Below, one piece after another: positions 18,237 to 56,460 of a DNA stretch of 64,000 nt; position 1 is the stretch's first letter, and each line of letters starts with the position of its first letter. The translations under genes were made by a program, and so were the position numbers. The stretch spans positions 1 through 64,000 of the forward strand of contig CAMCTY010000003.1 of the NCBI GenBank assembly GCA_945878725.1. Direction: 5' to 3'. This DNA is from Bifidobacterium breve. Lineage in GTDB: Bacteria > Actinomycetota > Acidimicrobiia > Acidimicrobiales > Acidimicrobilacustridaceae. The notes beneath the pieces were generated by a model. It was not told the DNA's origin, ran no database searches, and saw only the letters and a program-made list of their open reading frames with translations.

Positions 18237-18238
18237 AT

Positions 18239-19048
18239 CTAGAGCTCCTCGGTGACGTTGCGGGCTTTGCGGATAAAGATCAGCCAACCGAGAACGAACG
18301 TGACGAGCGAGAAGATGATCACTCCACCGAACGTCACCAGAGAAGGCCACTGCAGAAAGTAGAACGCGTCGCGCGAAAGGCCCACGAACCTGGTGAGCGG
18401 ATTCGCATTAATGATCGCCCGCAACGGAATCCCGAACTTTGATTCCGGAACCTGGCTGATTTGGTAAACGATCGGCGTCGAATAGAAGAGCAGGTTCATA
18501 CCGATGCTCACGAGATAACCGACATCGCGTAGATAGACGTTATAGACCGATACGACGAGGCCCAGCCCGAGGGCGAAGAGCCCGAGGAATACGAGCATGA
18601 CCGGGAAGAGGATCAGAGTGAACGAAACATTGCCCAGACCAATCATGATCAAGGCAAGGATGCTGCCCTCGATGAGTGCCTGAAGCACGACCGTGAACAC
18701 GTGGGCGATGGCAGGACATGCAGCTGGGAAATAGACCTTGTTGAGCAACGGGCCGGCGCTCTGAAGGGCTGTAATGGAACCCGACACAATGCCCTGGAAA
18801 TAGTTCCAGACAATGAGCCCCGCGAAGAGATAAAGAGCGAACACGGCCGTGTGCCCGTTGCCGGCAACCGGGGACTTGGCCCCGAAGATGACGCCGAAAA
18901 CCAAGCTGTAGATCAAAAGCGTCGATGCCGGGTTGATCAGTGACCAGGCCCAACCCAGAATGCTCTTCTTGTACCTCGAACGCAGCTCGCGTTGCGTGAG
19001 GTTGTAGATGAGATTCCGGTAGGCCCAGAGCTCGGTGGCTGCAGTCAC
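18239..19048 (-). CDS. wzm: Wzm-type polysaccharide ABC exporter permease
   Basis: A 269-residue ABC-2 type permease. The N-terminal amphipathic piece with RELRSRYKKSILGWAWSLIN is diagnostic of the polysaccharide/polyol-phosphate exporter family and is followed by about six membrane helices. It pairs with the adjacent ATPase to move a lipid-linked glycan across the membrane. The start is GTG 19046-19048, with an AAGGGA ribosome site upstream. Confidence 0.92.
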   Translation of the reverse strand: MTAATELWAYRNLIYNLTQRELRSRYKKSILGWAWSLINPASTLLIYSLVFGVIFGAKSPVAGNGHTAVFALYLFAGLIVWNYFQGIVSGSITALQSAGPLLNKVYFPAACPAIAHVFTVVLQALIEGSILALIMIGLGNVSFTLILFPVMLVFLGLFALGLGLVVSVYNVYLRDVGYLVSIGMNLLFYSTPIVYQISQVPESKFGIPLRAIINANPLTRFVGLSRDAFYFLQWPSLVTFGGVIIFSLVTFVLGWLIFIRKARNVTEEL

Positions 19049-22010: not shown

Positions 22011-23371
22011 CGCTTCACGAACCACTCTGCCAGTTCCGCGTCCGGAACAAGTTGGGTGGAGCGCAATCGCCTTCGGGTCACGAGCATGGCCGGAAGTAAT
22101 GCGAGGAAGCCAAGGAACGATCGAAGTCTTCGGCGCACAATTGTGAGTCTTGGGCGCTTCAGACGCATAACGGGCCGGATGATGTCTCGACGCGCATAGG
22201 ACAATGTGGTCAGCACAAAATGCCAGACCTGTTTTGCCGCCATTCCTGCGGGAGCGTTCTTCACCAGCATGAGCAGACGGTTTCGCTCCACGTGGTAAGC
22301 GAACACCTCGGAGCCTTCGCCGCTGCTCGCGGCGTGCTCATGACGAGCCACGCTCTTCGGAGCAGTGCAGTAACGCCAACCTCTCGCTCGACCTCGCCAT
22401 GAAAGATCAGTGTCCTCGTAATAAAGAAAGAACCGCGTATCGAGGAGACCAACATCGGCGAGATACGAAGGTCGGAGAAGGACCGAGCCACCACACCACG
22501 CGAAGACATCTTCGGGTTCGTCGAACGATCCATCGTCTCGCGCTAACCAGCCCCGGTCAGCACCGGCACCGTCGTCGAAAACAATTGAGCCAACGTTGTT
22601 CACGACGTCATACGGCTTCAGGGACAACTCGACCGTGACGGGCGAAAACCCAGATTCAACCGCTGCTGATTTTTGTCCACGTCCGCCGTCAACTGTCACC
22701 GTTGTGGGCACCGGCGAATCAAAAATCAATGTCACCTTCTGTGGGGTTGTTCCGGGTTCAAACGGCACTCGCACCACCCCATGGGGCCCGATCCATTCGA
22801 ACGTCCCAAGCCGGTCTGCTTCCCGACCCCAACCGCCCTCGCCAACATGGGCATGACTCCAAACATCAGAGCCGTCCACCAGAACTCCGCGGAGCATCAC
22901 GCCGAGTTCACGTGTGTCCCCTTGCCCGGGGTCGAATCCCGGAGCATCAACCACCACGTCGGTGAACTTGGGGGCCAGCAGAAGCTTTGAACTGACAGCA
23001 CCAAGTTCCGGAGCGCTCTCCATCATCTCCACCAGCGCCGAAAGCCATGTCGGCTCGACGTAGGCGTCATTGTTTACTAGCGCCACATAATCGATTCCCT
23101 GGAGATCCCTCATCGCCAGGTTGTTGGCCGGGAATCCGAGGTTCGAACTGGTTTGGCGAATCTCCACCTCGGGAAACTCACCGCGGATCGCCTCGATACT
23201 TCCGTCAGTCGACACATTGTCGACGCAGACGATTTCGAGTTGCCCCACCGGCCAGTCGAGATTTCTCAAATGACGAAGACATTTCAGCGTCAGGACACCA
23301 CCGTTGAAATTGAGAACGACGACTCGAACCCGTGCATGGGTGTTCGCCACGTCATCGCCCTCGACGAGCAT
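22007..23371 (-). CDS. Family 2 glycosyltransferase with inserted beta-rich domain
   Basis: A 454-residue GT-A enzyme. VRVVVLNFNGG, CVDNVSTDGS and LVNNDAYVEP mark the family 2 core with its metal-binding acidic site, and FFLYYEDTDLSWRGRARGW is the acceptor-side motif found in WbbL-like rhamnosyltransferases. About residues 137-286 form a beta-rich insertion (WIGPHGVVRVPFEPG, TTVTVDGG) resembling the one in the neighbouring family 4 enzyme. The C-terminal 90 residues are basic with a hydrophobic stretch, probably membrane-contacting. The ATG at 23369-23371 overlaps the upstream gene by 20 bases; a GTG at 23350 directly after that stop is an alternative. Rhamnose as donor sugar is inferred from the WbbL likeness. 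Confidence 0.83.
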   Translation of the reverse strand: MLVEGDDVANTHARVRVVVLNFNGGVLTLKCLRHLRNLDWPVGQLEIVCVDNVSTDGSIEAIRGEFPEVEIRQTSSNLGFPANNLAMRDLQGIDYVALVNNDAYVEPTWLSALVEMMESAPELGAVSSKLLLAPKFTDVVVDAPGFDPGQGDTRELGVMLRGVLVDGSDVWSHAHVGEGGWGREADRLGTFEWIGPHGVVRVPFEPGTTPQKVTLIFDSPVPTTVTVDGGRGQKSAAVESGFSPVTVELSLKPYDVVNNVGSIVFDDGAGADRGWLARDDGSFDEPEDVFAWCGGSVLLRPSYLADVGLLDTRFFLYYEDTDLSWRGRARGWRYCTAPKSVARHEHAASSGEGSEVFAYHVERNRLLMLVKNAPAGMAAKQVWHFVLTTLSYARRDIIRPVMRLKRPRLTIVRRRLRSFLGFLALLPAMLVTRRRLRSTQLVPDAELAEWFVKR

Positions 23372-25754
23372 CAGCACGGATCTGTTCGATCCGCTGTGCC
23401 ATTCTGCGACCACAGACCTGCGGTGAAAATCGTCGCTCAAGATCAGCCCGTGCACGAGCTCCGGTGGCTGCTGCCTCAACCGGATTGTCGAAAATCTCTC
23501 GCATGTAGGCCGACGCTTGATCGAGATCCGGATCTGCCCACAAAGCACGGGGATCGTAGGGATCGTTTCCGCGTCCGACGGCCACCGGAGTGTGGTTCAC
23601 CAGGTACGCAGTCTCGGGAGTCATGAAATCGAGGTTTCCCGAATACGCAGTCGCGATCACAGGCTTCCCGAGCGCCATCGACTCAGCCATGGTCAGACCT
23701 AGTCCCTCGGAACGGTGAAGCGAAACGTAACAATCAGCGGCTGACAGCAGGGCGCCGAGATGTCCCGCATCGAGATAACCGTCAAGGACCGCGATATCGG
23801 AACGACCATCGGCCGCGATCAGGATCTGTTCCCGGTCGAGCCTGCGCTGATCGCCATTAATGGTCTTGATGACGAGTCTTGCTCCGTCCCCCTCGGCAAA
23901 CGCTTTTGTATACGCCTCGATCAGGCCAAGGGGATTCTTGCGACCGCTGACGCTGAGTAGATCGAAGACGAACAGAAACGTGAACCGCTCGTCGAGTCCG
24001 AGATCTGCACGGGGAACATCGGCGACCTCGGGGGCAACAAGAGGGATCGGCATGTGCACGACCGGAAGCGGCGAACTTTGACTTATGGCATCTCGCATGA
24101 AGCGGGTAGCAGCCCAAACTTCGTCGACAAGATCGAAAGCCGGGTACAACGATTTTGGGAAGTCCGAAAGTTCCCAAAACCATGCCCCGATTCGGTAACG
24201 ACCGTGAAGATGGGTGGGACCAAGATCCTGCGAGATCCATGAAAAAACGTCGGCGTTGACGTTGACGATTGCGACGTCGCTCTTGCCTCTTAGATCAAGC
24301 GATGACTCAGGGGCCACTGCACTCTCACGGCTCGCGCTTGCGCGATGCCATCCGGTAGTTCGATGAACGACTCCTGCAGCACGCAACGCAGACGCTGATC
24401 GCCGAGCTGCTTCACCCACTCCCAGTTCGGCGCGAAAAAGCCCGATGACTTCGACAACCGGAGGGGCACCTCGCACCGGAGATGCCAAGTCCTCCGGGAC
24501 CCAGTCGCTCATGATGCGGTCGAGAGACGAGACCATCGTTGAAGAAAGATGGTTCTCGCGGATGGCATTCGATCGAAGCCAAAGCAGAAAGCCATGGCAG
24601 TCACCTCGCAGCATTTCCGGAAAGGCCGCTTCAACATCAATACGGATGGCCAGTAGCTCATCGAGATAGCGAGGTAGACCTCGATTGGGCGTCTCCTGTA
24701 GCAACCACTCCTCGAAGCGTTCCGGGCCATCTACGGCAGCAAGATCGGGCACTACCAAGTCCTTGCCCGCCGACGCCGCCATGACAGCGTCCCGGACCAA
24801 CCTGCGCATCACGATGTCGATCTCGAGGCCAGACGCGAGCCGGTTCCAACCGTATGCAGGCGCAACCACTTCGGCTTCGGACCGGCGAACACGTTCGGCG
24901 TATTGAGTACAGAGCCCACGTAGTACCGGTTCGGCGCTGAGCAAAACCCGCGGATTGTCGCCTGCGTATTTGCTCAAGACATGTGGACCGTACGGATCAA
25001 AACCGCTGTAGTGAAGAAAGACGAGTGGAGACCCCCCGGCGAAATACCGACCGTCGTGGAAAGAGATCGGGCGCTCGTGGAGATTCCAGTACGCCGCATT
25101 GCAGCCGGGATCTCGATGAATCACGTGAGGGAACAGGGACGGAACGAAATCCATCCACTTCTGATCTGTGAACAAGCCAGCTTCAGGACGCGAGACACAA
25201 TCGAACGCGAGTCGCTCCTGCCACCACTTCAAAAGTTTTGAAGAGTCCTCACCGAGGCCAAGAAATCCGAGGTTGTACATCCCGGCCCGCATAATTAGCG
25301 TCTCGGGAGGAGTGGTTCCGTCGCGAGGAATCGGCTCGAGCACGTGCGGCGTCAAGACAACACCGTGAACTGACGCCAACCTTGCCAGCTCAGCAAGAGA
25401 CGAAAAGACTTCGATGTCGGGATCGAGATAGAGAACAGGTCCGGGGACCCTCTTGAGCGCCGCTTCCATCACCCACGGCTTGAGGGCCGTCGAAAACTCG
25501 GTGATGTCGTAGAAAATGGCCATCAACCGCAATTGATTTTCGTCTAGTGAAAGGTCGCCCAACCGGATCAGGTTGATTCCATCCTCGGATTCGACCTCGT
25601 CGTTTATGTCATCAACGACACAGAGGTCGAAAATGCCGTCCGGGTGCGTCAACCGGAACGACTCAGCCAAGACCTTGACCCGCGGAAGGTAGTTGCGGGC
25701 GGCAATCGTGCAGATGTGCACTGGTTGGCTGAAAGTTTCGGTCACCGAGCTCAC
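23352..25754 (-). CDS. Bifunctional glycosyltransferase: GT-A domain fused to family 4 GT-B
   Basis: An 800-residue protein. Residues 1-290 form a GT-A domain with YLDPDIEVF (DxD at 111-113), TPHVLEP, LGFLGLG and DQKWMDFVPSLFP. Residues about 425-800 are a family 4 enzyme: GLFRAELGVGEAARR, GAWFWELSDFPKSLYP, FLFVFDLLSVSGRKNPLG and HRSEGLGLTMAESMALGKPV. The middle is an alpha-rich linker. The fusion suggests two sugars are added in sequence by one polypeptide. A close relative of the GT-A part occurs at 50741-52657. The GTG at 25752-25754 overlaps the rmlD stop as GTGA. Confidence 0.85.
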   Translation of the reverse strand: MSSVTETFSQPVHICTIAARNYLPRVKVLAESFRLTHPDGIFDLCVVDDINDEVESEDGINLIRLGDLSLDENQLRLMAIFYDITEFSTALKPWVMEAALKRVPGPVLYLDPDIEVFSSLAELARLASVHGVVLTPHVLEPIPRDGTTPPETLIMRAGMYNLGFLGLGEDSSKLLKWWQERLAFDCVSRPEAGLFTDQKWMDFVPSLFPHVIHRDPGCNAAYWNLHERPISFHDGRYFAGGSPLVFLHYSGFDPYGPHVLSKYAGDNPRVLLSAEPVLRGLCTQYAERVRRSEAEVVAPAYGWNRLASGLEIDIVMRRLVRDAVMAASAGKDLVVPDLAAVDGPERFEEWLLQETPNRGLPRYLDELLAIRIDVEAAFPEMLRGDCHGFLLWLRSNAIRENHLSSTMVSSLDRIMSDWVPEDLASPVRGAPPVVEVIGLFRAELGVGEAARRSASALRAAGVVHRTTGWHRASASRESAVAPESSLDLRGKSDVAIVNVNADVFSWISQDLGPTHLHGRYRIGAWFWELSDFPKSLYPAFDLVDEVWAATRFMRDAISQSSPLPVVHMPIPLVAPEVADVPRADLGLDERFTFLFVFDLLSVSGRKNPLGLIEAYTKAFAEGDGARLVIKTINGDQRRLDREQILIAADGRSDIAVLDGYLDAGHLGALLSAADCYVSLHRSEGLGLTMAESMALGKPVIATAYSGNLDFMTPETAYLVNHTPVAVGRGNDPYDPRALWADPDLDQASAYMREIFDNPVEAAATGARARADLERRFSPQVCGRRMAQRIEQIRADARRGR

Positions 25755-28255: not shown

Positions 28256-30292
28256 TCAGAGGGTTCGACAGCCCAGATCCGTGTTTGTCGAACCAGCACC
28301 GACATTGAGAATCGTCAAACAGACTCGCGCCGGAGCGGCAGTGGCCACCCAGACATGGGAGTAACCGTGAAGATCCCCCACCCCGGGGAAAGCTGCTCCG
28401 ACATCGGGACGGGAAATGTCAGCGGTGAGCGTCGTCAGAACTGTTCCGTTCACGGTGACTCGCACCTGAACCGGTGCGTTGGTGTCCGGATCGACCGCCC
28501 AGCCCGAGATTCCGAGTGCAACGTCGTAAGCACGCGCCGACCAATCGATGCTTCCGCCCGGCTTTGAGGCGATCGTCAGAGTGCGACATCCGACTAGAGG
28601 GTTCGTCGTTCCGATTCCGACATTGATCGCGTAGACGCACGCGGTATGTGTCCCGCCGGGAAGTCGAATGGCGAGATCAAACCCATGGTTCGGGCCGACG
28701 CCTTGATACGCAGCCCCGACGTCAGGCCGGCTGGCGTCAGCGGTGTACGCCCCACCCCATTGCCCATTGACGTAAACGTGGACCGAAACGGGATCAGCCG
28801 TATCTGGATCAAGGACCCAACCCACAAGATTCAGGTTGGCAAAGCCAGCCTTTGCGGATTCGAAGTTGCCGACCGGGTTTCCACCTGGAACAACAACCGT
28901 CCGGCAACCCAAGGAGACGCGAGTTTGAATCTCTCCCGCATTGACAGCGTTTACGCAGACCGTATGCGAGCCGCCGGAAACTCCGCTGACATCGATGTCG
29001 AAACCCGTGGTGCCACTCGACCCGGGGAAGACCGTTGCAACATCTGGACGAGCCTGTCCAGTAGCACCGCTCGCCGCGAGAGTGCCGTCCACGAACACTT
29101 CCATGGCAATGGCTGCCGTGGTATCCGGGTCAAGTGACCAACCTGACGCACGGATCGCCCCCGGGCCGGTCGAAACGACCGATTCGAAGTTCCCTACCGG
29201 AAGGCTCGCAACTGTCCGGCAGGACATTTCGGGATTAGTTGAACCGCCACCGACATTGATTGCATAGACGCAAACTCGATGTTCTCCCGGGCCAACGGGA
29301 ACAGAAACCTGTATCCCGTGAGTCGGGCCAAAGCCCGTGTAGACCGCCCCGACGTCTGGACGCGAAACATTGGCTGTGTAGGCACCGCCCCACTGCCCAT
29401 CCACGTAGACATGGACACTTATCGGATCTCTCGCATCGGGATCAATCGCCCAGCCACCGATCTGAATACTTGTCGGTAATCGCGTCATCGACTCGATGTT
29501 TCCGAATGGGTTACCCGCGCCCACGCCGCTCCCACTCAGGGCGGCGAGGCTCGAGATGTCACAGCAAAAACGGTTGACATCAACATTTCCAATGATCCCG
29601 GGGACCGCACCCGTACTTGTGTATTGCCAGAATGTCCACGCCGACCAACCCGCTGGCACTGTGGGTCGGAATGTTGTGGAATTTGGATCGTTCGGATAAC
29701 TCGCGATCCAGAGGCGGTAGTCACTCCCGATAGCCGTCGACTGACCGGAGCAGACGTTCCAGTAGGAGGCTCCCGTATACACAACGGGGGCCTTTCCGGT
29801 CAGGCGCTTGACCTCGTCCAGCCAAGTGCGTGCCCACGTCACGAAATCCCCGGGGCTCAACCCGTAACAAGCATTTGCGCCGTAGGGGTTGTATTCGAGG
29901 TCGAGCATGGCGGGAAGATCGAGTGGCCCTGTCATTGATCCGGTGACCGAGATGAAATAGCGGGCCTCTTCAAGCGCGTCGGCAACAACTGGATATGAGG
30001 GAATCGCAAAGTGGTACGCACCGCGATACAAGCCCGCATTCCCGGCTGCGTCCCAATCGCGCTTGAACCATGGATTGATATACGTACTCGAACTGCTCCG
30101 ATATTCGGTTGCCTTTACATACCCGAACGAATGTCCGGCCCCCTTCACTGCATTCCAGTCAATCGGAGCATTCGTGCTGTGTTGGTAGCTAGCAACATCG
30201 ATGCCGGTCAGGAGCGCGTCTGAGGGTGCTGCCGCCCCGAACCCAATAGCGGACGCGACCCCAAAGGCGGCGAGCAGGAGCGTCAACCGCAT
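28256..30292 (-). CDS. Secreted GH25 lysozyme with four C-terminal RPDV repeats
   Basis: A 678-residue exported muramidase. The N-terminus is a signal peptide (hydrophobic run after MRL, small residues near PSDA). The GH25 domain, about residues 29-245, opens with GIDVASYQ (Asp32) and has MLDLEYNP with Asp131 and Glu133, the expected catalytic acids, plus FWQYTSTG near its end. Residues about 264-678 hold four tandem beta repeats of roughly 100 residues. An AGGAG site precedes the ATG at 30290-30292; an upstream ATG at 30334 would add 14 residues. The enzyme may remodel peptidoglycan where the surface glycan is attached. Confidence 0.9.
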   Translation of the reverse strand: MRLTLLLAAFGVASAIGFGAAAPSDALLTGIDVASYQHSTNAPIDWNAVKGAGHSFGYVKATEYRSSSSTYINPWFKRDWDAAGNAGLYRGAYHFAIPSYPVVADALEEARYFISVTGSMTGPLDLPAMLDLEYNPYGANACYGLSPGDFVTWARTWLDEVKRLTGKAPVVYTGASYWNVCSGQSTAIGSDYRLWIASYPNDPNSTTFRPTVPAGWSAWTFWQYTSTGAVPGIIGNVDVNRFCCDISSLAALSGSGVGAGNPFGNIESMTRLPTSIQIGGWAIDPDARDPISVHVYVDGQWGGAYTANVSRPDVGAVYTGFGPTHGIQVSVPVGPGEHRVCVYAINVGGGSTNPEMSCRTVASLPVGNFESVVSTGPGAIRASGWSLDPDTTAAIAMEVFVDGTLAASGATGQARPDVATVFPGSSGTTGFDIDVSGVSGGSHTVCVNAVNAGEIQTRVSLGCRTVVVPGGNPVGNFESAKAGFANLNLVGWVLDPDTADPVSVHVYVNGQWGGAYTADASRPDVGAAYQGVGPNHGFDLAIRLPGGTHTACVYAINVGIGTTNPLVGCRTLTIASKPGGSIDWSARAYDVALGISGWAVDPDTNAPVQVRVTVNGTVLTTLTADISRPDVGAAFPGVGDLHGYSHVWVATAAPARVCLTILNVGAGSTNTDLGCRTL
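28259..29503 (-). repeat. Four tandem GW...RPDV...HGF protein repeats (lysozyme tail)
   Basis: Each unit of about 95-105 residues follows the order GNxES, GW-x-(L/I)DPD, (V/I)xVxVxV(D/N)G, RPDV, a GF/GI/GY motif after G or H, CxxAxN and CRT(L/V). The fourth unit lacks the GNxES opening and reads GSIDW instead. The nucleotide copies have diverged, so the array is old. The same repeat fills the tail of the lipoprotein at 34675. Confidence 0.85.
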
Positions 30293-30543
30293 CAGGTGCT
30301 TTCTCCTGCGGGGGCTTCTCGCGGGCGCGCTCATTGGTCAGCCGATCGGGGGAGGGGAGAATGGAGCAAGATCAATCTCATGAAAGTGGCCCGGCAAATC
30401 GGACAAATCGCCGAAAAGGGTAAATCGAATCGAAGGGTTATCCAACGGTCTCCCAACTTTAGACACCGACCAGCGCCGAACGCATTCAGGGTTGTTGAGC
30501 CATCAAAATGGCGACAACCTCAAGCAGCCATCTGAAGGATTCG

Positions 30544-34674: not shown

Positions 34675-36996
34675 CTAGAGAGTCCGGCAGCCCAGCGACG
34701 GATTCGTCGAACCCCGCCCCTGATTGATCAGGTAGACGCATACCGATGCGGGGGCTTGACCAGCGGAAAGGGGGATGACGAAGCCACGCGCAGATCCGTA
34801 TCCGGGGAATGCAGCACCCACATCGCCCCGTTGTCCGTCCGCGATATACGAGCCTCCCCATGCGCCATTGACATAGACGTGGATCGAAACGGAACCGGCG
34901 GCGTCAGGGTCTAGGGCCCATCCGCTAAGAGAGATGCCTGTTCCCGTGCGTACTGCACCCTCGAGGTTGCCGAAGGGATTACCCGACAAGACAACAACAG
35001 AGCGACAGACCGCCGGTTGATCACTCCCGTTTGCCCCTTGGTTGAGCAGCGTCACGCAAACCCAGCGTGTTCCACCGGCTGCCGGAATCAACTTCTCGAA
35101 ACCATGCGGCCCCGAGAAAACCGGAAAGGCCGCGCCGACATCGGGACGCGCTGTGGCAGTCGGAATAGTGATCGCGGCCCCGTCAACCGAGACCCGGACT
35201 GTTGAATCTCTCGTATCGGGATCGATTGCCCAGCCCGAGACAAAAACTCCACCCGGTCCGGCGATGACCGTTTCGACATTTCCGAAAACCTGCCCTGAAA
35301 CGACAACCACTGCGCATCCAAGACTGCGGTTGATCGTTCCCGAGGGGGGCTGGTTGATCGCTTCGACACACACCCTGCGACTTCCACCAGTTGTCGCGGC
35401 GAACACCGAATAACCGTGACCCGCGCCGTAACGGGGAAACACCGACGCAACGTCGGGACGGATATCTGAAGCCGTCGCTTCGATAATGGCCACACCATCA
35501 ACAGTGACTTTCACCGGCACTGGCGAGTTGGTGTCGGGATCAATCGCCCAGCCCGACACCCGGACGCCACCTAGCACCGCCGACGCTCCGTCGAGCGAGC
35601 CCACCGGGTCACCCGAAACCGTCACGGACCTGCAGCCGAGACTCGGATTCGTGTCGCCGTAGGGCGAAACATTGATCGCGTATGCACAGACCGAATGGAC
35701 TCCCGGGTTCACATCGAAGGCCGACGAAAAACCATGGAGATCGCCGTAACCGGGAATTGCCGACGCAACATCGGGACGCGATGCGTTCGCCACTAGGGCA
35801 CCACCCCATGCACCGTCGATGTAGACGTGGATCGCCACAGGGTCGTCGGAATCTGGATCGAGCGACCAGCCGCCAACACTGATTCTTCCGAGTCCCGACG
35901 TGACGACGGATTCGAGATTTCCAATCGGATTGCCAGTGAATTTGCCCCACGGCGTTGTTGCGATCCTCGGCGGATTACACAGACCGTGACCCGTCGTCAC
36001 GTCACAAAGACCCGCTGTCGAATCCCATGTGAGCGACGTCCGCGCGTTGGATGACACCGGCTTCGAGGCAGTGATATTGATGTCGTAGCCGGAGTCTTCC
36101 TTCAGCCATACGCGGTATTCGCGACCGTTGGCTCGAAACGAATAGAACGGTTTGGGTAGCGGTGTGACGTAGTCGGTTCGTCCGTCATACGTACCGTTTG
36201 CCCAACCCCGAGATCCTTCGGCATTCGCGGGATTGATATACCAGCAATCAATGCCATTGCCGATGCCAAAGACATTGCAGGTTCGCCGGATCATCCCGCC
36301 TGTTCGAGTCACCGACGTGTCGAATGCTGTATTGAGGAATGCGCCCGTTGAAAGTGAATTGAATAGGTTCTCGCAGGCGATCTTGTTCGAAAAACTGCAT
36401 CCGTACCAGGGGCCCCACGCGTAGGAACGTCGGTCCACAGGATCCAGCTTGGACGGAGGGGCATTACACCAGCGCCAGGAAATCGTGTCGGCAGCCTGAT
36501 TCGCAGCCGTTGTTGCATCGATTGCGTCAGCGGCGGTCATGTTCCATCCCCCGGCGGAATCGAACTGCCACAAACCGATACCCGGACTGAAGAACGCATT
36601 GACATACGCGCCGCTCGTACGCCCAAAGGCGAAGAGGTTGGCGTTCTCAGGACGCACGCCGACGTTGTCCCAGCGCGAGAGCGCCATCGGGGACGGAATC
36701 GGGCCGCCTGCTTCGAAATAGGTCGGAACCATCATCATGGCGGCGAGATCGGTCGACGAGAGCCCGCACCTTGCCTGGAACCCTTCGGCGCTCGTTACGA
36801 CATCGGCGGCTTCGCGAATCGAATCGAGAGGACCTTTGCCATAGGACTTGCCTGATGTCGGCGGGTCAAGCAAAGGAGGCAAACAACCAGTTGCGAGAAC
36901 GACGAAACCAATCAGCCCGAGCAGCAGTCCCAAAGCGCGACGAAACCGGCGACGAGATACGTCGTTGGTTGTCTTCGAAGCGCTTTCGGGCGACAT
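34675..36996 (-). CDS. Lipoprotein with lysozyme-like region and four RPDV repeats
   Basis: A 773-residue exported protein. Basic residues RRRFRR precede a hydrophobic stretch ending in the lipobox LATGC, so Cys38 should be lipidated and the protein anchored outside the membrane. Residues about 65-180 look lysozyme-like: MMMVPTYFEAGG supplies a candidate catalytic Glu95, then SPMALSRWDN and SPGIGLWQFDSAGG, the pattern of lytic transglycosylases. Several Cys pairs follow. Residues 355-773 are four repeats of the type seen in the GH25 lysozyme. Start ATG 36994-36996 has AGGA upstream. Catalysis is inferred. Confidence 0.75.
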   Translation of the reverse strand: MSPESASKTTNDVSRRRFRRALGLLLGLIGFVVLATGCLPPLLDPPTSGKSYGKGPLDSIREAADVVTSAEGFQARCGLSSTDLAAMMMVPTYFEAGGPIPSPMALSRWDNVGVRPENANLFAFGRTSGAYVNAFFSPGIGLWQFDSAGGWNMTAADAIDATTAANQAADTISWRWCNAPPSKLDPVDRRSYAWGPWYGCSFSNKIACENLFNSLSTGAFLNTAFDTSVTRTGGMIRRTCNVFGIGNGIDCWYINPANAEGSRGWANGTYDGRTDYVTPLPKPFYSFRANGREYRVWLKEDSGYDINITASKPVSSNARTSLTWDSTAGLCDVTTGHGLCNPPRIATTPWGKFTGNPIGNLESVVTSGLGRISVGGWSLDPDSDDPVAIHVYIDGAWGGALVANASRPDVASAIPGYGDLHGFSSAFDVNPGVHSVCAYAINVSPYGDTNPSLGCRSVTVSGDPVGSLDGASAVLGGVRVSGWAIDPDTNSPVPVKVTVDGVAIIEATASDIRPDVASVFPRYGAGHGYSVFAATTGGSRRVCVEAINQPPSGTINRSLGCAVVVVSGQVFGNVETVIAGPGGVFVSGWAIDPDTRDSTVRVSVDGAAITIPTATARPDVGAAFPVFSGPHGFEKLIPAAGGTRWVCVTLLNQGANGSDQPAVCRSVVVLSGNPFGNLEGAVRTGTGISLSGWALDPDAAGSVSIHVYVNGAWGGSYIADGQRGDVGAAFPGYGSARGFVIPLSAGQAPASVCVYLINQGRGSTNPSLGCRTL
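34678..35934 (-). repeat. Four tandem GW...RPDV...HGF protein repeats (lipoprotein tail)
   Basis: Four units of about 100 residues with GW(S/A)(L/I)DPD, a V/I-rich strand ending in DG or NG, RPDV (RGDV in the last unit), a GF or GY after a glycine-rich turn, and a C-terminal cysteine pair. Units two and three are shorter in the central strand. The order and spacing equal those in the lysozyme tail. Confidence 0.85.
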
Positions 36997-37128
36997 GAGA
37001 GTCCTCAGGCAAAATAGTTCAACCGACGACAAAGTCGCCGGGTACTCCGCCCGAGTCCACAACCCTACCTACCGAGCAAGGACAAGCGGGGGCGACCCCT
37101 GCCCACCGGACCTACCCGAATAAAGAGA

Positions 37129-49580: not shown

Positions 49581-50744
49581 CTAGGTCGAACTGTTGCGTC
49601 GGTAGCGATCGCCAAGATGGATCATTGTGGCTACATTGCGGACAAGTCCCAGATACTGGGAGTCGATGGGAAGGCGCTCGGCGAAGTCTCGTTGGGGAAA
49701 GCGCGTTCGGATGAAGGAACCATTACGGAGTTCACTGATATCCGACTCGAGTAAGGCACACGCATCCGCAATGGTCGCACGGGACTCCTCATCGAGGCGC
49801 CCGGTCGCGCGCTCCGCAAAATCGCCTGCGTCGAGGATCCATGCCTCCGCGTAGGCGGCTAGACCGCCAAAGACTGACGGGCCGAACACCTCACCTTCAT
49901 CGAGTTCGAGGACCTGGCGTTCGTATTTCTGCGCAACTTCGAATGTCGGCGTTCCTAAGGCCACCGAATTCAGGAGCATGCGCTCGATGAAACCCCAGTC
50001 CGGATCGTGATAGGCGATTAGGTGACGGCTGGTCAGACTCGAACGAACATCTCTGACGAACATCGCCTGATAAAGGATCTCCACCGGCGCTAACCCGATG
50101 TTTGCCGCCGGGACGTCGACGAGATCGCCTTCAAGCACTGCGGCCAGTCCCGTGCGATGTAGGAATCGGCGCAGAAGATCAGGACCCTCATAGGCCATGA
50201 GTTCCAAGCCGACGGATTTATCTTCCAACCAGATTCCAAGCGAACCGGACAGAAAACCATCTCGATCTTCGAGTGCCCGATCAACCCAAGTCGCCCAGTC
50301 GTACCACTGGGACTTCGTCACCTGGGTCCAGCACGACCAAAGCCAGTCAATTGGATTGCGAATCGTGGCGTGGACAGTTAGGGCCGCGTCATGGACCGAC
50401 GCGAATTCTCTGATCGCCGCCGCGCCGTTCGGTCCGATGATGTGAACATCTTCGGTAGAGATCAGATAAACGTCCTCGCGCGTCCACTCGGGAAAAAACT
50501 CGGTGCGGCCGGCAACATTCGCGAAGAACGAACTCTCCCTTTGGGCGCCATCGAGCGACTTGAGATGATGCGCCAGGAGATAGTGGGCTCCGAGTCCTTC
50601 GACCGACAGAACTCCGACACCCAATTGTGCGAATGCATCGGCGTTGTGCTGGATGAAGTTTTGGATTGTTGTGGTGCCAGTCTTCGGGAGCCCGACATGC
50701 AACAACAACGACCGGATTGTCGACGACTCACCGGTGAAAGTCAC
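49581..50744 (-). CDS. Sulfotransferase-like P-loop protein
   Basis: A 387-residue protein. LLLHVGLPKTGTTTIQNFI near residue 14 is the 5'-phosphosulfate-binding loop of PAPS-dependent sulfotransferases, and TIRNPIDWLWSCW about residue 130 matches the 3'-phosphate-binding motif. The rest is helical without close recognition. It would transfer sulfate to a sugar or lipid acceptor, fitting a glycan-decoration role. Its GTG at 50742-50744 overlaps the upstream stop as GTGA. It is the last gene of a three-gene coupled unit. The donor PAPS is assumed from the family. Confidence 0.75.
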   Translation of the reverse strand: MTFTGESSTIRSLLLHVGLPKTGTTTIQNFIQHNADAFAQLGVGVLSVEGLGAHYLLAHHLKSLDGAQRESSFFANVAGRTEFFPEWTREDVYLISTEDVHIIGPNGAAAIREFASVHDAALTVHATIRNPIDWLWSCWTQVTKSQWYDWATWVDRALEDRDGFLSGSLGIWLEDKSVGLELMAYEGPDLLRRFLHRTGLAAVLEGDLVDVPAANIGLAPVEILYQAMFVRDVRSSLTSRHLIAYHDPDWGFIERMLLNSVALGTPTFEVAQKYERQVLELDEGEVFGPSVFGGLAAYAEAWILDAGDFAERATGRLDEESRATIADACALLESDISELRNGSFIRTRFPQRDFAERLPIDSQYLGLVRNVATMIHLGDRYRRNSST

Positions 50745-52657
50745 GTCGCAGTCCCGCTATGGCTCTTGTAGACCGCCTCTACTTGCGCTGCGGTGTATGC
50801 ATCTGATGGGACCTGCACAAGAAAGCGCTCGAGCCCTTGGAACAGGACGACATCAGCGCTGTATGCCTCCACCACATCAAGAGGAATAGCTCCACTGTGC
50901 AGAAACGTCACCTCCCTGAACACACGGGCGAACCAGTACACGAGATGTGCCGGCGAATCACCCACGCCGGCAAACGAGTTTCCGACGATGCAAAGAGTCA
51001 ACGGCACTGGCGCCTCCGGATTCAGCCATGTCACCCGTCGCCCGGTGGAGTTCTCGATTTCGACGTCGGATCCCGAAAGGTAAACGCACGTGGGCTGAGC
51101 CGTGGGAACGGCAAGGCGCCGAGTCGCAACATTGCCCACTCGGGTGGTTCCGAACTTACTGCTTAGATCCCCGGATCTTTGAAAAGGTTTGACCTCCAGC
51201 ACATCCAACGTGAACTCGTCGTACCCCACTCGCCGCAACACGTCATTGACGGTTTCGAGGCAGCCGAATTCACTCCAGTGCGAATCGACATAGCCCCATG
51301 GATTCCGCTCTCTCCTGTTCGCGGGAAGCGAGGCCTCAAGAAGAGAATCGCAAAAAAGTACATCGCTCCGCGAGTCGAGCGCCTCGCGAAGATCGCGCCA
51401 TGCGGGGGTTGGGCAGGTATCAAGGGGCAGCGGGTAGAGGTCAGAAAGGCACGTTGCTTTGTTCGGAACAAACAGCGACAACACCTTTGCCGACTCGCCG
51501 ATCCAGCGGTGACGCTCCTCAGTGAGTTCGGCCCATGCGATTCCAAGGGCATCCGACCGGCGATTGATGTACTGATCGTGGTAGCCGTTCGAACCTTGGT
51601 AGATGAAAAGCACTCCTCCTTTACCCACAATTGTCGACCTGTCCGACGAGATTGAACCCACTGGTAGGGCCGAAAGTTGGTCGTCGGGGGTGAAAGCCGA
51701 AAACACGTCTGTCTCATCCGAGCGCTCTTCGAACATCGATTCAGTGCCGGCGGGGGCAGAAGTCTGAGGACGATTCATCGGTGCGAACGCCCACAATGGC
51801 GCTTCGTGTCCGCTATTGAAGAACTCGAGACGCTCGAGATACCAACGCCACAAGTCGGCAGCCAACGGATTGTCATCCATTTTTGCACGGGACGCCTGTA
51901 AGCCAATCCCGGTGCCCTTGGTGAAGTGGTACATCACAAGCGGATCGCCATTGACGAGATAATCACCGTTCGCGTCGATTGTCATCAACCGTTGGTGAAG
52001 GTTCCATGAGGCCAGGTTGATACCCGGATGGCGGCAAATCGTGGCATCAGGGAAGAAACTGGGGACGAAATCTCCCCATCGCTGATCGACGAAAAGGCCA
52101 CGGGGAATGTCGTCGACGCAGAGGGTCGACAGCCGTTCATCCCACCATTTCGCAAAGGTAATTCCTTCCGGACAGGCGCGAACGCCGAACATCCCAAAGT
52201 TGTAGATGCCGTGGGCCAATGAGCTGATCTCGTCGGCTATCCAAGGGGAGCCGGTACGTGCTGGCGCAAGTTGATGGGGTGTGAGTATCACCGAACTCGT
52301 TTCAAGTTGCGAAGTGAATGCGTCGAGCGGGCCGAACAGGGCGGTGTCGGGATCGAGATACACGACGTTGTCACCCCTCTCGAGTAGCCGTAGAACTGCC
52401 CGCCCCTTCACCGACGTACAAGCTTCGACAACGTCGTACTGCGCCATCCAGCTCTCGCACTCGTCGCCAAGGAGATCTTCGACCAAAAGAATCTCGTCGA
52501 AGAGTTCAAGACGTTCACAAATGATCGGATTGCTCGGCATTTTGTCGACGAGCACCAGAACGAAATGTGCGTCCGGTTCGTGCCGTTCGACGGACTCACG
52601 GAGAATGAGACATTGAGGCAGATAAGCGAGGTTGGCGGAGGTAAAGATACTGATCAT
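50741..52657 (-). CDS. GT-A glycosyltransferase fused to an AlgX/AlgJ-like SGNH domain
   Basis: A 638-residue protein. Residues 1-285 form a GT-A domain with VVYLDPDTALF (DxD at 102-104), TPHQLAP and DQRWGDFVPSFFP, homologous to the N-terminus of the transferase at 23352. Residues about 335-615 have the order seen in alginate acetylation proteins AlgX/AlgJ: GKGGVLFIYQGSNGYHDQY, then DSHW at 458-461, a GNS nucleophile motif at 559-561, and ADVVLFQGLERFL. These predict an O-acyl transfer site. No signal peptide or membrane helix is visible, so it should act in the cytoplasm. The ATG overlaps the upstream stop as ATGA. Confidence 0.75.
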   Translation of the reverse strand: MISIFTSANLAYLPQCLILRESVERHEPDAHFVLVLVDKMPSNPIICERLELFDEILLVEDLLGDECESWMAQYDVVEACTSVKGRAVLRLLERGDNVVYLDPDTALFGPLDAFTSQLETSSVILTPHQLAPARTGSPWIADEISSLAHGIYNFGMFGVRACPEGITFAKWWDERLSTLCVDDIPRGLFVDQRWGDFVPSFFPDATICRHPGINLASWNLHQRLMTIDANGDYLVNGDPLVMYHFTKGTGIGLQASRAKMDDNPLAADLWRWYLERLEFFNSGHEAPLWAFAPMNRPQTSAPAGTESMFEERSDETDVFSAFTPDDQLSALPVGSISSDRSTIVGKGGVLFIYQGSNGYHDQYINRRSDALGIAWAELTEERHRWIGESAKVLSLFVPNKATCLSDLYPLPLDTCPTPAWRDLREALDSRSDVLFCDSLLEASLPANRRERNPWGYVDSHWSEFGCLETVNDVLRRVGYDEFTLDVLEVKPFQRSGDLSSKFGTTRVGNVATRRLAVPTAQPTCVYLSGSDVEIENSTGRRVTWLNPEAPVPLTLCIVGNSFAGVGDSPAHLVYWFARVFREVTFLHSGAIPLDVVEAYSADVVLFQGLERFLVQVPSDAYTAAQVEAVYKSHSGTAT

Positions 52658-54654
52658 CTTCCACCACCAGAATCGCGACTGGTGACGGCAATAAGTGCCG
52701 GACTCAGACCGGTCATCTCGAAAGCCATTAGCGGCCGGGGCACCTTGCGGTGATGCGAGCGAATTCGCTCGGCAAGCCCACCATCCGACAGCAGGTCCTC
52801 GATCGAGTCGAAAACAATCGCGCGATTGAATTCGCGTGCCGCATCGACCACGTGACCAGAATCAGAGTTTGTAATCACGAGACAGCCAGCTGCGAGCGAT
52901 TCGTAGTTCACGAAATTGAAGGTCTCCTTCCACCGGGGCCAATTCATCACAGCATCGATCCCGCGCTCAACCAGAAGATCTGTCGTCAGACCGAGATTCC
53001 CAAACTGCTGATTGAGCTTCACAAACTTGATGCCCGAGATCATTTGATCGTCGACACCGAAATGGAAGAACTCGAAAAGATCTGCGGAAGATGAACGAGA
53101 GAACTCCATAAAGGTGTCCCATCCCTTATGGAACGCCGGATGTCCGATGAAGGCGACACGGACCCTCCCCTCGTTGACAACTGTCGAAGCGATGGCTCCT
53201 GAGCCAACTAGCTGGCCATGAGGGACCACCCTCGGTCGTCTCGGCAGTGGAGTCCCTCCGGCAGTCGAAACATCTGCAGCTGCCACGGAAGGAGCGCACA
53301 GCTCCCAGTCGAAGTCATCCATCAGGCTCCGAACTCGGACGACATGCCCGGACCGTTCCCGACCGAAGGAACACATAGTGCAACTCTGGGAATCAAGTTG
53401 CGGATCGCCACAGAAGTTCACTCCGTTGCGAAGTAACAAGAAGTTGGCACAGTGCGAGGAAAAGTCGTGAACCCACCACACGAGCTTTCGCGGAGACAAA
53501 CGCTCAATCGCTTCGGCAATTCGTTCCGGCTGGTGGCCCAATACAGAGTGCATAATGATTCCAGCCACTACTGGCCCCCCAGGGAAAATCGTAATCAGGG
53601 CATCCACAAACTCCGACAATCTGAACGACCCCGATAGAAGCATGCCATTGACACGACATCCAACGAGGGCGTCGTCGGTATCGGTAGATCTCAGTGCGGA
53701 GCGGGGCTCAACGGGGAAGATATAGGCGTAGGTCGCACCCAACAGCGCAAATTGCTGTTGTTCGAATCCTGCGCACAACTGGATTCCTCCAACATTGGTT
53801 CCGTAATCGTCGTGACCGAATGCGACGACGAGTTCGTCGTGGTCTCGGAAGCCACTTGCAAGCAAACCCGCAACAACTTGATCTCCGGCCCACCGCATTT
53901 CCGAATCCACTTCCGGATGCAGGTCATGTGGTTCAGGTCTGTGGGATTTCGCCATGATGACCCGATCAACATCGGAAACCGGTTGGTATCGGCTTGTTGT
54001 CCTGCGAGGAGCGGGGAGGCGATTTTCGCGGAAACCTCCGTTAAGGAAATGTGAGAGTGGGTCACGACCACTCACTCGCACATCGGGGTTCCCGGCAAGA
54101 TAGAACTCAGCGTCGAACCATTCCGGACCAGCATCTTCTGCATCAGACTTTTCATGCGGGAACACGAAGTCGGTAAGATCAATATCAAATCCGATGGATT
54201 CGAGAAAACGCGTGAGCTCGACGCGCAATGCAGCGGCTCGTTGCGCCGCCCAATGTTCACGCGAGACGAAACTCGACGGCAGAACCGCCAGTCGCCCCCC
54301 AGCCCGGCCGCCGTTGATGTAGTGCGCTAGCGGATTGAGACCTGCGGCGTCCACATCGGGGTTCTCACACAGGTACCCATCAGTTGAGAAATTCGCCGAC
54401 GCATCGAGTCCGAGCTTCCAACCGACTGTGAGGAAATGCTCAAGCGCATCACCAGGATCCATATCGGATCCTCCGTCGATCTGATCACGATAAAAACTAG
54501 GATCAAAGTAGATCCCGAAGACCGATGACCATTCCTCAACCGTTTCCGAAGTCGGTTCCTGGGTCGGCTCCACAATCACCTCGCGAATTGCGTCGGGACT
54601 AGGAGCAACGGGAAGTGATGCAATCTCGGAATTTCGACGAAATCGCTTCAGCAC
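52654..54654 (-). CDS. Putative GT-B glycosyltransferase with N-terminal NPDV repeats
   Basis: A 666-residue protein. Three related units lie at about residues 50-83, 89-122 and 180-213, each with FD/FS, an aromatic, NPDV or an equivalent, (D/N)PLxH(F/Y)(L/I) and a GG or GW turn. Similar units flank glycosyltransferases in other bacteria. Residues about 255-650 look like a GT-B enzyme: VAFGHDDYGTNVGGIQL, VRVAFIGHPAFHKGWDTF and FNFVNYESLAAGCLVITN, the last matching a donor site with glutamate. Four cysteines near residue 425 may bind a metal. Start is GTG 54652-54654. Confidence 0.7.
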   Translation of the reverse strand: MLKRFRRNSEIASLPVAPSPDAIREVIVEPTQEPTSETVEEWSSVFGIYFDPSFYRDQIDGGSDMDPGDALEHFLTVGWKLGLDASANFSTDGYLCENPDVDAAGLNPLAHYINGGRAGGRLAVLPSSFVSREHWAAQRAAALRVELTRFLESIGFDIDLTDFVFPHEKSDAEDAGPEWFDAEFYLAGNPDVRVSGRDPLSHFLNGGFRENRLPAPRRTTSRYQPVSDVDRVIMAKSHRPEPHDLHPEVDSEMRWAGDQVVAGLLASGFRDHDELVVAFGHDDYGTNVGGIQLCAGFEQQQFALLGATYAYIFPVEPRSALRSTDTDDALVGCRVNGMLLSGSFRLSEFVDALITIFPGGPVVAGIIMHSVLGHQPERIAEAIERLSPRKLVWWVHDFSSHCANFLLLRNGVNFCGDPQLDSQSCTMCSFGRERSGHVVRVRSLMDDFDWELCAPSVAAADVSTAGGTPLPRRPRVVPHGQLVGSGAIASTVVNEGRVRVAFIGHPAFHKGWDTFMEFSRSSSADLFEFFHFGVDDQMISGIKFVKLNQQFGNLGLTTDLLVERGIDAVMNWPRWKETFNFVNYESLAAGCLVITNSDSGHVVDAAREFNRAIVFDSIEDLLSDGGLAERIRSHHRKVPRPLMAFEMTGLSPALIAVTSRDSGGGR

Positions 54655-54711: not shown

Positions 54712-56460
54712 CTAGCTACCGACCTCGGCTGCTTGGCGAGCGTGATAACTCGATCGCGTCAATGGGCTGGACTCCACATGGCCGATCCCGAGCAACTCCC
54801 CCACCCGCTTGAATTCGAAGAACTGTGCGGGCGTAACCCATCGATCGACCGGTAGGTGATGCGAAGTCGGCCGGAGGTACTGCCCAATCGTCACGATCGA
54901 AACTCCGATACCAGCGAGATCGGCGAGCGTCGCAAACAGTTCCTCGTCGGTTTCACCCATTCCGACAACTAATCCTGATTTGGTGGTGAGCCCTGCAGCG
55001 CGGGCCCGGGCGAGCACCGACAGCGAGCGGGCGTAGCCGGCTGATGGTCGCACGGCCCGCTGCAACCGCGGCACTGACTCGACATTGTGGTTCAACACAT
55101 CCGGCCGACTGGCGAAGATCGTTTCGAGTGCTTCTTTCCGCCCTCGACAATCCGAGATCAGCACTTCAACTTTCGCGCCCGGCGAACGTTTCCGAATTGC
55201 CGCCACCGTTTCGGCCATCGGGCCGGCGCCTTCATCAGCGAGATCGTCGCGTGCGACTGTTGTAACAACGGCAAACCCAAGACCCATTCGAGCGACGGCC
55301 TCGGCGACGCGCTCTGGTTCAGTGACATCAATCGGCTCAGGCTTGCGGGTGTCAACAAGACAGAACCCGCATGCACGCGTGCAGCGTTCGCCGTTGATCA
55401 TGAATGTCGCGGTTCCGTCGGCCCAGCATTCCGAAAGATTCGGACAACCAGCCTCCTCACAGACCGTAACGAGCGATAGATCGCGCAGTGTCTGCTTAAT
55501 TTCGAGTGACTTTCCGCCGAGCTTCACCGGAGCACGAAGCCATTCCGGCTTACGCGTGGCAACGTCCATACCTGGAGCGACCCCGGCTTCGGCCAGCCTT
55601 CCCCGCAGTCGCAACGACGGACCGTCAGACACTGCGATCAGTTCCGGAGCAGCCGACACACCGTGGTCCTCCGCCGAACGAACCGGCGCACCTGCACCCT
55701 CACCCCGGCTGAACGGGCTCAGGTCATCGTCGCTGCGTGAGCCCTCGCGCCAGATCACATCCGAGCGTTCCCATCCGCCAGGGCCCGATCCCCATCGATC
55801 CGCAGCACGAGCAGTGATGGTGTCGACGACGTCGTGCATCGAGACATTGATGCCCTCTGCCGCAAGCGAGGTAACCGATTTGCCGACGATCCCGCACGGG
55901 ACAATGTGTGTGAACATCGACATGTCGGGATCGACATTCAGCGCGAAGCCATGCATCGATCGCCCTCGAGTGATGCGCACACCTATCGCTGCGATCTTGC
56001 GTGGATTGTCAGATTCTGGTTCGACCCAGACTCCGGGATAATCGCGAAGCCGTCCGACGTCAGACAGACCTAGGTCGTTCAGAGCGTCGATCACCAGTTG
56101 CTCGACGGAACACACATAGGCGACCGTGTCGGCCATGCCCCCACCACGCTTACCGGGCACCGAGAGAATCGGGTAACCAACGAGTTGTCCGGGTCCGTGA
56201 TACGTGACATCTCCGCCTCGATCGGCTCGCACAAGTTCAGCGCCAACCGATTGCGGGTCCACCAAAACATGCGTCATGTCGGCCCGCGAGCCGAGGGTGT
56301 AGACGTGGGGATGCTCGAGGAGCAAGAGCCAATTGTCGAGTCCGTGGGTGAAGAAGCCTCGCTGAAGTTCCGAGGCTTCGTCGTACGGAACCGTGCCGAG
56401 CCATCGCACCCGCAACGGGCGCGCACGTTCGCCAGCAACCGGAGTCCCGGCAGCGGCCAT
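54712..56460 (-). CDS. Fused octanoyltransferase-lipoyl synthase (LipB-LipA)
   Basis: A 582-residue fusion of the two lipoate-synthesis enzymes. Residues about 15-225 are LipB: RGGDVTYHGPGQLVGYP, RKIAAIGVR with the catalytic lysine, and PCGIVGK with catalytic Cys189. A polar linker of about 60 residues follows. Residues about 285-582 are LipA: CEEAGCPNLSEC (334, 339, 345) binds the auxiliary cluster, CTRACGFC (360, 364, 367) the radical-SAM cluster, and RSSYHA near the C-terminus supplies the serine ligand. One protein could move octanoate to the E2 and insert both sulfurs. The start is two bases after the stop of the E2 gene, its likely substrate. Confidence 0.93.
   Translation of the reverse strand: MAAAGTPVAGERARPLRVRWLGTVPYDEASELQRGFFTHGLDNWLLLLEHPHVYTLGSRADMTHVLVDPQSVGAELVRADRGGDVTYHGPGQLVGYPILSVPGKRGGGMADTVAYVCSVEQLVIDALNDLGLSDVGRLRDYPGVWVEPESDNPRKIAAIGVRITRGRSMHGFALNVDPDMSMFTHIVPCGIVGKSVTSLAAEGINVSMHDVVDTITARAADRWGSGPGGWERSDVIWREGSRSDDDLSPFSRGEGAGAPVRSAEDHGVSAAPELIAVSDGPSLRLRGRLAEAGVAPGMDVATRKPEWLRAPVKLGGKSLEIKQTLRDLSLVTVCEEAGCPNLSECWADGTATFMINGERCTRACGFCLVDTRKPEPIDVTEPERVAEAVARMGLGFAVVTTVARDDLADEGAGPMAETVAAIRKRSPGAKVEVLISDCRGRKEALETIFASRPDVLNHNVESVPRLQRAVRPSAGYARSLSVLARARAAGLTTKSGLVVGMGETDEELFATLADLAGIGVSIVTIGQYLRPTSHHLPVDRWVTPAQFFEFKRVGELLGIGHVESSPLTRSSYHARQAAEVGS

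Follow-up and report, generated by a model that had tools for sequence, protein, structure and literature searches.

An Actinobacterial Glycosyltransferase Fused to an AlgX/AlgJ-like SGNH Domain without a Visible Export Signal

The stretch of DNA analyzed here, referred to as the window, comprises 64,000 nucleotides of contig CAMCTY010000003.1 (GenBank assembly GCA_945878725.1) from a genome placed in the order Acidimicrobiales. It contains, at 50741-52657 (-), an open reading frame (ORF) that begins with ATG, has no internal stops, and joins a GT-A/GT8-like glycosyltransferase (GT) to a domain homologous to AlgJ and AlgX, the proteins of alginate O-acetylation. In current understanding, AlgX and AlgJ act in the periplasm together with a membrane acyltransferase (MBOAT). 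Judged from its sequence, the fused protein appears to be a cytoplasmic offshoot of this family, and its probable role is that of an O-acyltransferase for the glycan assembled by its own GT half. We assign a probability of a little under 0.6 to the reading that it is a bifunctional enzyme of glycan assembly in the cytoplasm, in which the GT half would add a sugar and the SGNH half would acylate before export.

An earlier, sequence-only reading of this DNA had proposed one chain joining a GT-A domain to an AlgX/AlgJ-type SGNH domain, and this is borne out by the GT8 and glycogenin matches of the protein and by its profile homology to AlgJ and PatB1. The motifs named at that time (DxD, GVLFIY, DSHW, GNS, and a C-terminal GLER) are all found in the 638-residue ORF, with GVLFIY at residues 348-353. 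The residue numbers Asp458, His460, and Ser561 were exact, and none of the three residues varies among the 14 aligned sequences.

Homology of the C-terminal Half to AlgJ and AlgX

Relatives of the domain were collected by tblastn, with residues 330-638 as query and 72,556 plasmid records (7.3 billion bases) as database; 14 records matched at E up to 10. The best match was a Phyllobacterium relative (E = 3e-9), and some of the others were at chance level. Nine records were taken: two each from Phyllobacterium, Escherichia coli, and Bradyrhizobium, and one each from Paracoccus, Marinibacterium, and Gemmobacter. Five were left out: three whose scores equaled those of records taken (one from E. 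coli, two from Bradyrhizobium) and two short matches (Microvirga and Pseudomonas). With the window as query, the matches to Marinibacterium, Paracoccus, and Gemmobacter were weak (E = 9, 0.03, and 0.08, respectively); with the Phyllobacterium domain as query, they were clear (E = 7e-13, 1e-7, and 3e-37).

An alignment of 14 rows, termed A1, was made of the window protein, its counterparts at the related loci L003, L004, L006, and L009, and the nine plasmid relatives. The rows from L004 and L009 are near-identical. Ten columns of A1 are invariant (Pro398, Asp458, His460, Gly465, Asp497, Leu498, Gly559, Ser561, Phe562, and Arg611), and Lys400 and Gly539 are at least 90% conserved. Because the invariant columns persist across 14 rows, nine of which share just 19-22% identity with the window protein, the motifs are not due to chance.

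With an E limit of 1, family PF16822, which represents AlgJ and AlgX, matches 12 of the 14 rows (best 7e-12); only the window protein and its counterpart at L003 go unmatched. Four of the 10 relatives scanned singly (L038, L040, L041, and L043) pass the curated cut-off. When the Protein Data Bank (PDB) was searched with the A1 profile, AlgJ (4o8v) was found at E = 2.7e-11, PatB1 at 2.3e-10, and AlgX weakly at 0.074. Homology of the window protein to the family is thus seen indirectly: on its own, it matches no Pfam model in this region, but its relatives hit PF16822, and AlgJ is retrieved by the A1 profile. A hidden Markov model (HMM) of seven proteobacterial relatives, with the window clade left out, scored the window protein at 93.9 bits, whereas none of 2000 shuffled versions of its C-terminal domain exceeded 6.1 bits. 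When the HMM was instead built from seven anchored AlgX-like proteins of actinobacteria, the score was 27.0 bits, against 3.3 bits for the top shuffle.

The candidate catalytic residues follow the permuted order of AlgX and AlgJ, with Asp458 and His460 ahead of Ser561. In the sections of PMC9487903 that describe these proteins, AlgJ is characterized by two signature motifs, three hydrophobic residues followed by PXK and (R/K)TDTHW, the AlgX/AlgJ nucleophile consensus is GTSYS, and the corresponding residues in AlgX and AlgJ are required for esterase activity or O-acetylation. The first signature is present in the window protein as LFVPNK, in which Pro398 and Lys400 are the conserved positions. 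The second is not, as the window reads YVDSHW and keeps D-x-H-W alone; among the relatives, the full motif is seen as KTDTHW in a single Phyllobacterium row and as RTDTHW in the two rows from Bradyrhizobium. The nucleophile motif GNSF of the window reads GDSF in the nine plasmid-borne relatives.

Structure models were made of the full-length protein and of the C-terminal half. A Foldseek search with the C-terminal model gave five matches at E up to 0.001, all of them PatB1 chains (best E = 7.6e-5, probability 1.00), and the next match was AlgJ (E = 0.013, probability 0.77). PatB1 of Bacillus cereus (PDB codes 5v8d and 5v8e) is thus the best Foldseek match and the second-best PDB profile match. 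A difference is that PatB1 acts in peptidoglycan O-acetylation, outside the membrane and together with a membrane partner.

These comparisons support the assignment of the C-terminal half as an AlgX/AlgJ-type SGNH domain. It shares with AlgJ and AlgX the order PXK, DXHW, GxS, and ER, the profile homology to AlgJ, and a candidate Ser-His-Asp triad. It differs from them in having no visible signal or anchor and no MBOAT neighbor, in being fused to a GT, and in carrying GNSF in place of GTSYS.

Origin and Maintenance of the Fusion

The same in-frame fusion recurs in another genome of the genus (G003, locus L003), where the protein has 638 residues from the aligned ATG and is 80% identical. At L009 (genome G005), L006 (G006), and L004, the GT and the SGNH domain are encoded by separate genes in the same order, with an overlap of 1-4 bases. 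At L006, the GT gene is itself broken within a low-coverage contig. The contig of L004 is filed under a Pirellula metagenome-assembled genome, yet it is near-identical to L009. This record and the one holding L007, filed as Bifidobacterium breve, look wrongly labeled or binned, because their contigs match the present actinobacterial genus. At L007 (G002), L005 (G018), and L010 (G004), an M24 peptidase gene directly follows the GT gene, and both the SGNH domain and the sulfotransferase-like gene described below are absent at that place (for L005, as seen from ORF coordinates only).

The domain is carried by 4 of 21 genomes of the genus, in two as a fusion and in two as separate adjacent genes. 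A fusion in 2 of 21 genomes makes it lineage-specific. Because relatives hold the two halves as overlapping neighbors, the fusion would have formed most simply by the loss of one stop codon between them.

A comparison of the two fused genomes gave a ratio of nonsynonymous to synonymous substitution rates (dN/dS) of 0.079 in the GT half, 0.149 in the SGNH half, and 0.34 in the linker, whose 44 residues are only 36% identical. Both halves are maintained under purifying selection, and the linker is loose. The occurrence of the halves as separate overlapping genes in relatives would fit an assembly artefact, in which two adjacent genes are read as one through an error. We rejected this explanation, which has next to no probability given the identical in-frame fusion of 638 residues in a second genome at 80% identity and the purifying selection on both halves.

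The Glycosyltransferase Half

Pfam scores of the GT half lie below the cut-offs both for PF03407 (20.4 bits, cut-off 22) and for the GT8 family PF01501, of which there is a trace (10.8 bits, cut-off 24.3). The full-length structure model matched glycogenin and GT8 proteins with Foldseek (best E = 1.2e-8, probability 1.00). In a tblastn search of the plasmid records, 12 matched the GT half at 25.7-36.6% identity, and a glycosyltransferase is annotated in 7 of these. The protein thus resembles the GT8 family (glycogenin, LgtC) in its GT-A fold, as seen by Foldseek, and in its DxD motif, and it differs in its sub-cut-off scores and in the SGNH fusion.

The window also contains a paralogue of the GT half at 24951-25715 (39% identity). 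It forms the N-terminal part of an 800-residue protein (23352-25754 (-)), in which a GT-A domain is followed by a GT4-type C-terminal region.

A Signal-less Branch and Its MBOAT Context

Export signals and anchors were judged by Kyte-Doolittle hydropathy alone, as 19-residue means. The maximum for the window protein is 1.44 with the upstream frame included, and no membrane helix or anchor is seen, in agreement with the sequence-only reading, which had found no signal peptide or membrane helix. In 15 signal-less proteins (those of the window, L003, L004, L006, and L009, the nine plasmid relatives, and one from genome G636), no stretch exceeds a mean of 1.65, also when the open frame upstream of the start is included.

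When the A1 profile was run across 396 genomes of the phylum, eight matched, the window genome included. The other seven AlgX-like proteins all have a hydrophobic stretch ahead of the domain (means of 2.09 to 2.76), and in each case an MBOAT match lies within 457-1022 bases of the domain match in one and the same contig. In contrast, the four domain-bearing members of the genus have their single MBOAT on a different contig from the domain, and an MBOAT was found on none of the nine plasmid replicons that carry a relative. Across 397 genomes of the order, 14 matched; the window genome, G003, and G376 had been counted before, and 11 were additional. Eight of these 11 are hydrophobic ahead of the domain (2.24 to 2.92), the G636 protein (L068) is not, one is ambiguous at 1.87 (L070), and one is cut off by a contig end (L071). 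The gene of the unanchored G636 protein (L068/L079, 9273-10283) is flanked by an aminotransferase gene and a biotin ligase gene, and genes for LytR-CpsA-Psr, UDP-glucose dehydrogenase, and an epimerase are located within ~5 kb. Because of this setting and of its ESHY motif, found where the family has DxHW, its function may differ. Overall, the data support the view that the signal-less form of the AlgX-type domain is a group of its own, found elsewhere mostly in polysaccharide loci.

In the window genome, the fused ORF is on contig C3, and the MBOAT is on contig C1. There (L062, 5301-7925), the MBOAT gene is followed by a gene for a 378-residue DUF459 SGNH protein with an N-terminal hydrophobic stretch, as recognized by eye. 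This is apparently the extracytoplasmic acylation pair of the genome. PatB is treated within the DUF459 family in the portion of PMC9487903 that concerns it.

One alternative is that the fused protein, or its SGNH half, acts outside the membrane like AlgX and AlgJ, through a route that requires no visible signal. All seven anchored relatives in the phylum adjoin an MBOAT, and the genome of the window has one MBOAT and two AT3 matches elsewhere, which would suit this alternative. We nevertheless consider it very improbable, given that the in-frame fusion partner is a GT-A domain, which depends on nucleotide sugars, that neither the window protein nor the 14 further signal-less relatives have a hydrophobic segment, and that the MBOAT of this genome already has its own DUF459 gene next to it.

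Gene Neighborhood

The gene order in the window is a 666-residue glycosyltransferase-like protein, the fusion, a 387-residue sulfotransferase-like protein, and an M24 peptidase (Table 1). The counterpart of the 387-residue protein holds the same position at L003, L004, and L006. A sulfotransferase identity for it was not upheld, as the Pfam match has an E of 0.14 and a profile search found no sulfotransferase in the PDB. The 666-residue protein has no Pfam or PDB sequence match. Upstream of it, a 582-residue protein (54712-56460 (-)) combines LipB-type octanoyltransferase and lipoyl synthase (radical SAM) domains, and similar long ORFs occupy the same place at L003 and L007. Farther away, two large proteins (28256-30334 and 34675-37062 (-)) contain repeated modules resembling GW-x-LDPD ... 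RPDV ... HGF by eye.

Table 1. Coordinates of the fused ORF, its domains and motifs, and the adjacent genes in the window
Feature	Residues	Position	Strand	Remarks
Fused ORF, GT-A glycosyltransferase and AlgX/AlgJ-like SGNH domain	1-638	50741..52657	(-)	638 residues
GT-A/GT8-like glycosyltransferase	1-285	51803..52657	(-)	
DxD motif DPDT	102-105	52343-52354	(-)	
Linker	286-329	51671..51802	(-)	Corresponds to tail of separate GT gene and start of separate SGNH gene
AlgX/AlgJ-like SGNH domain	330-615	50813..51670	(-)	
VPNK	397-400	51458..51469	(-)	LFVPNK fits AlgJ signature (three hydrophobics-PXK)
DSHW	458-461	51275..51286	(-)	Candidate Block V DXH (Asp458, His460)
GDLSSKF	496-502	51152..51172	(-)	Asp497 and Leu498 invariant
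GNSF	559-562	50972..50983	(-)	Candidate nucleophile Ser561
LERF	609-612	50822..50833	(-)	Arg611 invariant
387-residue protein		49581..50744	(-)	N-terminal sulfotransferase-like P-loop motif HVGLPKTGTT, by eye; identity tentative
666-residue upstream protein		52654..54654	(-)	Glycosyltransferase-like by inspection only; conserved in relatives at the upstream position

The plasmid relatives in Phyllobacterium, Bradyrhizobium, Marinibacterium, Gemmobacter, and E. coli lie near glycosyltransferase, dTDP-rhamnose, polysaccharide pyruvyl transferase, or sulfotransferase genes. In the Phyllobacterium relatives, the domain is fused to TPR repeats. The Gemmobacter gene looks broken or misread, because the start of its SGNH domain (L045, 7600-8300) and the annotated gene are in different frames. 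The domain had no match in phages, and one scan of viral contigs found no relative.

One of the E. coli relatives is situated in a capsule locus with ABC-transporter genes, and it overlaps the next glycosyltransferase gene by four bases. The gene is named "alginate O-acetyltransferase AlgX-related protein" by NCBI and is found near-identical in 3 of 5426 E. coli genomes. In ABC-transporter capsules of this kind, the chains are finished before export. Because the domain is fused to a GT in the window genus and adjacent to an overlapping GT gene in E. coli, its partnership with GT genes is seen in two distant lineages. A general linkage to ABC transporters was considered and dropped, as the genes annotated near one relative each from Phyllobacterium and Bradyrhizobium include no polysaccharide ABC exporter, in plasmid gene tables that are incomplete. 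The window itself contains an apparent ABC-type polysaccharide exporter pair, recognized by reading, at 16968-19048, ~30 kb from the fusion.

Discussion

In the mechanism that we favor, the N-terminal GT-A/GT8-like domain would add a sugar from a nucleotide-sugar donor to a glycan in the cytoplasm. The C-terminal domain, which has neither an anchor nor an MBOAT partner, would then acylate this sugar or the adjacent one with a small group, in the simplest case acetyl, by way of a putative Ser561-His460-Asp458 triad. Acylation would precede export of the glycan. Because no MBOAT partner is evident, the acyl donor would be acetyl-CoA or another cytosolic compound. The meningococcal enzymes CsaC, OatC, and OatWY O-acetylate a capsule that has an ABC-transporter exporter, a role comparable to the one proposed for the window protein.

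Ester hydrolysis is also carried out by SGNH triads, and the C-terminal domain might instead be a cytoplasmic esterase that strips acyl groups from a glycan intermediate or an activated sugar. No acyl-donor gene was recognized among the scanned neighbors and no MBOAT in the nine plasmid records, and weak esterase activity of AlgJ and AlgX in vitro is described in the relevant part of PMC9487903. With the closest characterized profile relatives, AlgJ and PatB1, being O-acetylation proteins, and with the PXK signature of AlgJ retained, we judge hydrolysis to be an unlikely function, at roughly one chance in six. A non-catalytic module that binds the glycan and positions the growing chain for the GT domain is slightly less likely still. 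The GNSF motif of the window clade in place of GDSF, the loss of the aspartate in the unanchored G636 relative, and the TPR fusion of the Phyllobacterium relatives would all suit such a scaffold, but Asp458, His460, and Ser561 are invariant in all 14 aligned sequences.

Several results count against acylation by a cytoplasmic AlgX-type enzyme, and some of them concern the homology. The C-terminal half of the window protein matched none of the Pfam and NCBIfam models, the window and L003 proteins remained below the PF16822 gathering score with no match, and PF16822 found no match in the window genome at E up to 10. A phmmer search of the PDB with the window protein gave two weak matches, both to designed proteins, and a profile of the four closest rows alone did not find AlgJ there. 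The two HMM tests are supportive but not fully independent, because the window itself, or a profile that included it, served as query in the searches for the relatives. The nucleophile motif is neither GDSF nor GTSY. The structure models are of low confidence (mean pLDDT 62.3 and pTM 0.47 for the full-length protein, 53.1 and 0.59 for the C-terminal half), and both are weak because the alignment held only the window and related-locus sequences and was therefore shallow. The Foldseek fits are correspondingly loose, with query TM scores of 0.42-0.46 for PatB1 and 0.34 for AlgJ and rmsd values above 6 Å. Other results concern the setting. Of the four domain-bearing contigs of the genus, three are just 4 to 20 kb long, and the MBOAT count for the nine plasmid relatives covers the plasmids and not the host chromosomes. 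The Paracoccus relative is outside any glycan locus, and the G636 protein has ESHY. We know of no cytosolic AlgX-type protein with a demonstrated activity. The known proteins AlgX and AlgJ have the MBOAT protein AlgI as their partner, as stated where PMC9487903 deals with this pair.

A broader reading would be that one branch of the AlgX/AlgJ family has shifted to the cytoplasm, has dropped its MBOAT partner, and uses a cytosolic donor to acylate polysaccharides as they are assembled; in the present case, fused to a GT, one chain would both add and decorate a sugar. We put this forward tentatively, at somewhat less than even odds. A single cytoplasmic enzyme that both adds and acylates a sugar had been called unusual and is not known to have been characterized, and the literature that was searched, with thin coverage of subscription journals, yielded no paper that we recognized on a cytoplasmic or GT-fused AlgX-type protein.

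The fusion is local and rare in the samples, and the signal-less branch that surrounds it is more interesting than the fusion alone. If acylation in the cytoplasm is correct, the AlgX/AlgJ fold can take an acyl donor directly, without an MBOAT partner. There would then be an unrecognized class of modifying enzymes for polysaccharides that are completed within the cell, among them some E. coli capsules, in which the gene is currently labeled "hypothetical" or "AlgX-related", and the GT fusion would indicate which sugar is modified. The findings suggest that, in one little-studied family branch, alginate-type decoration chemistry has been relocated to the inside of the cell.

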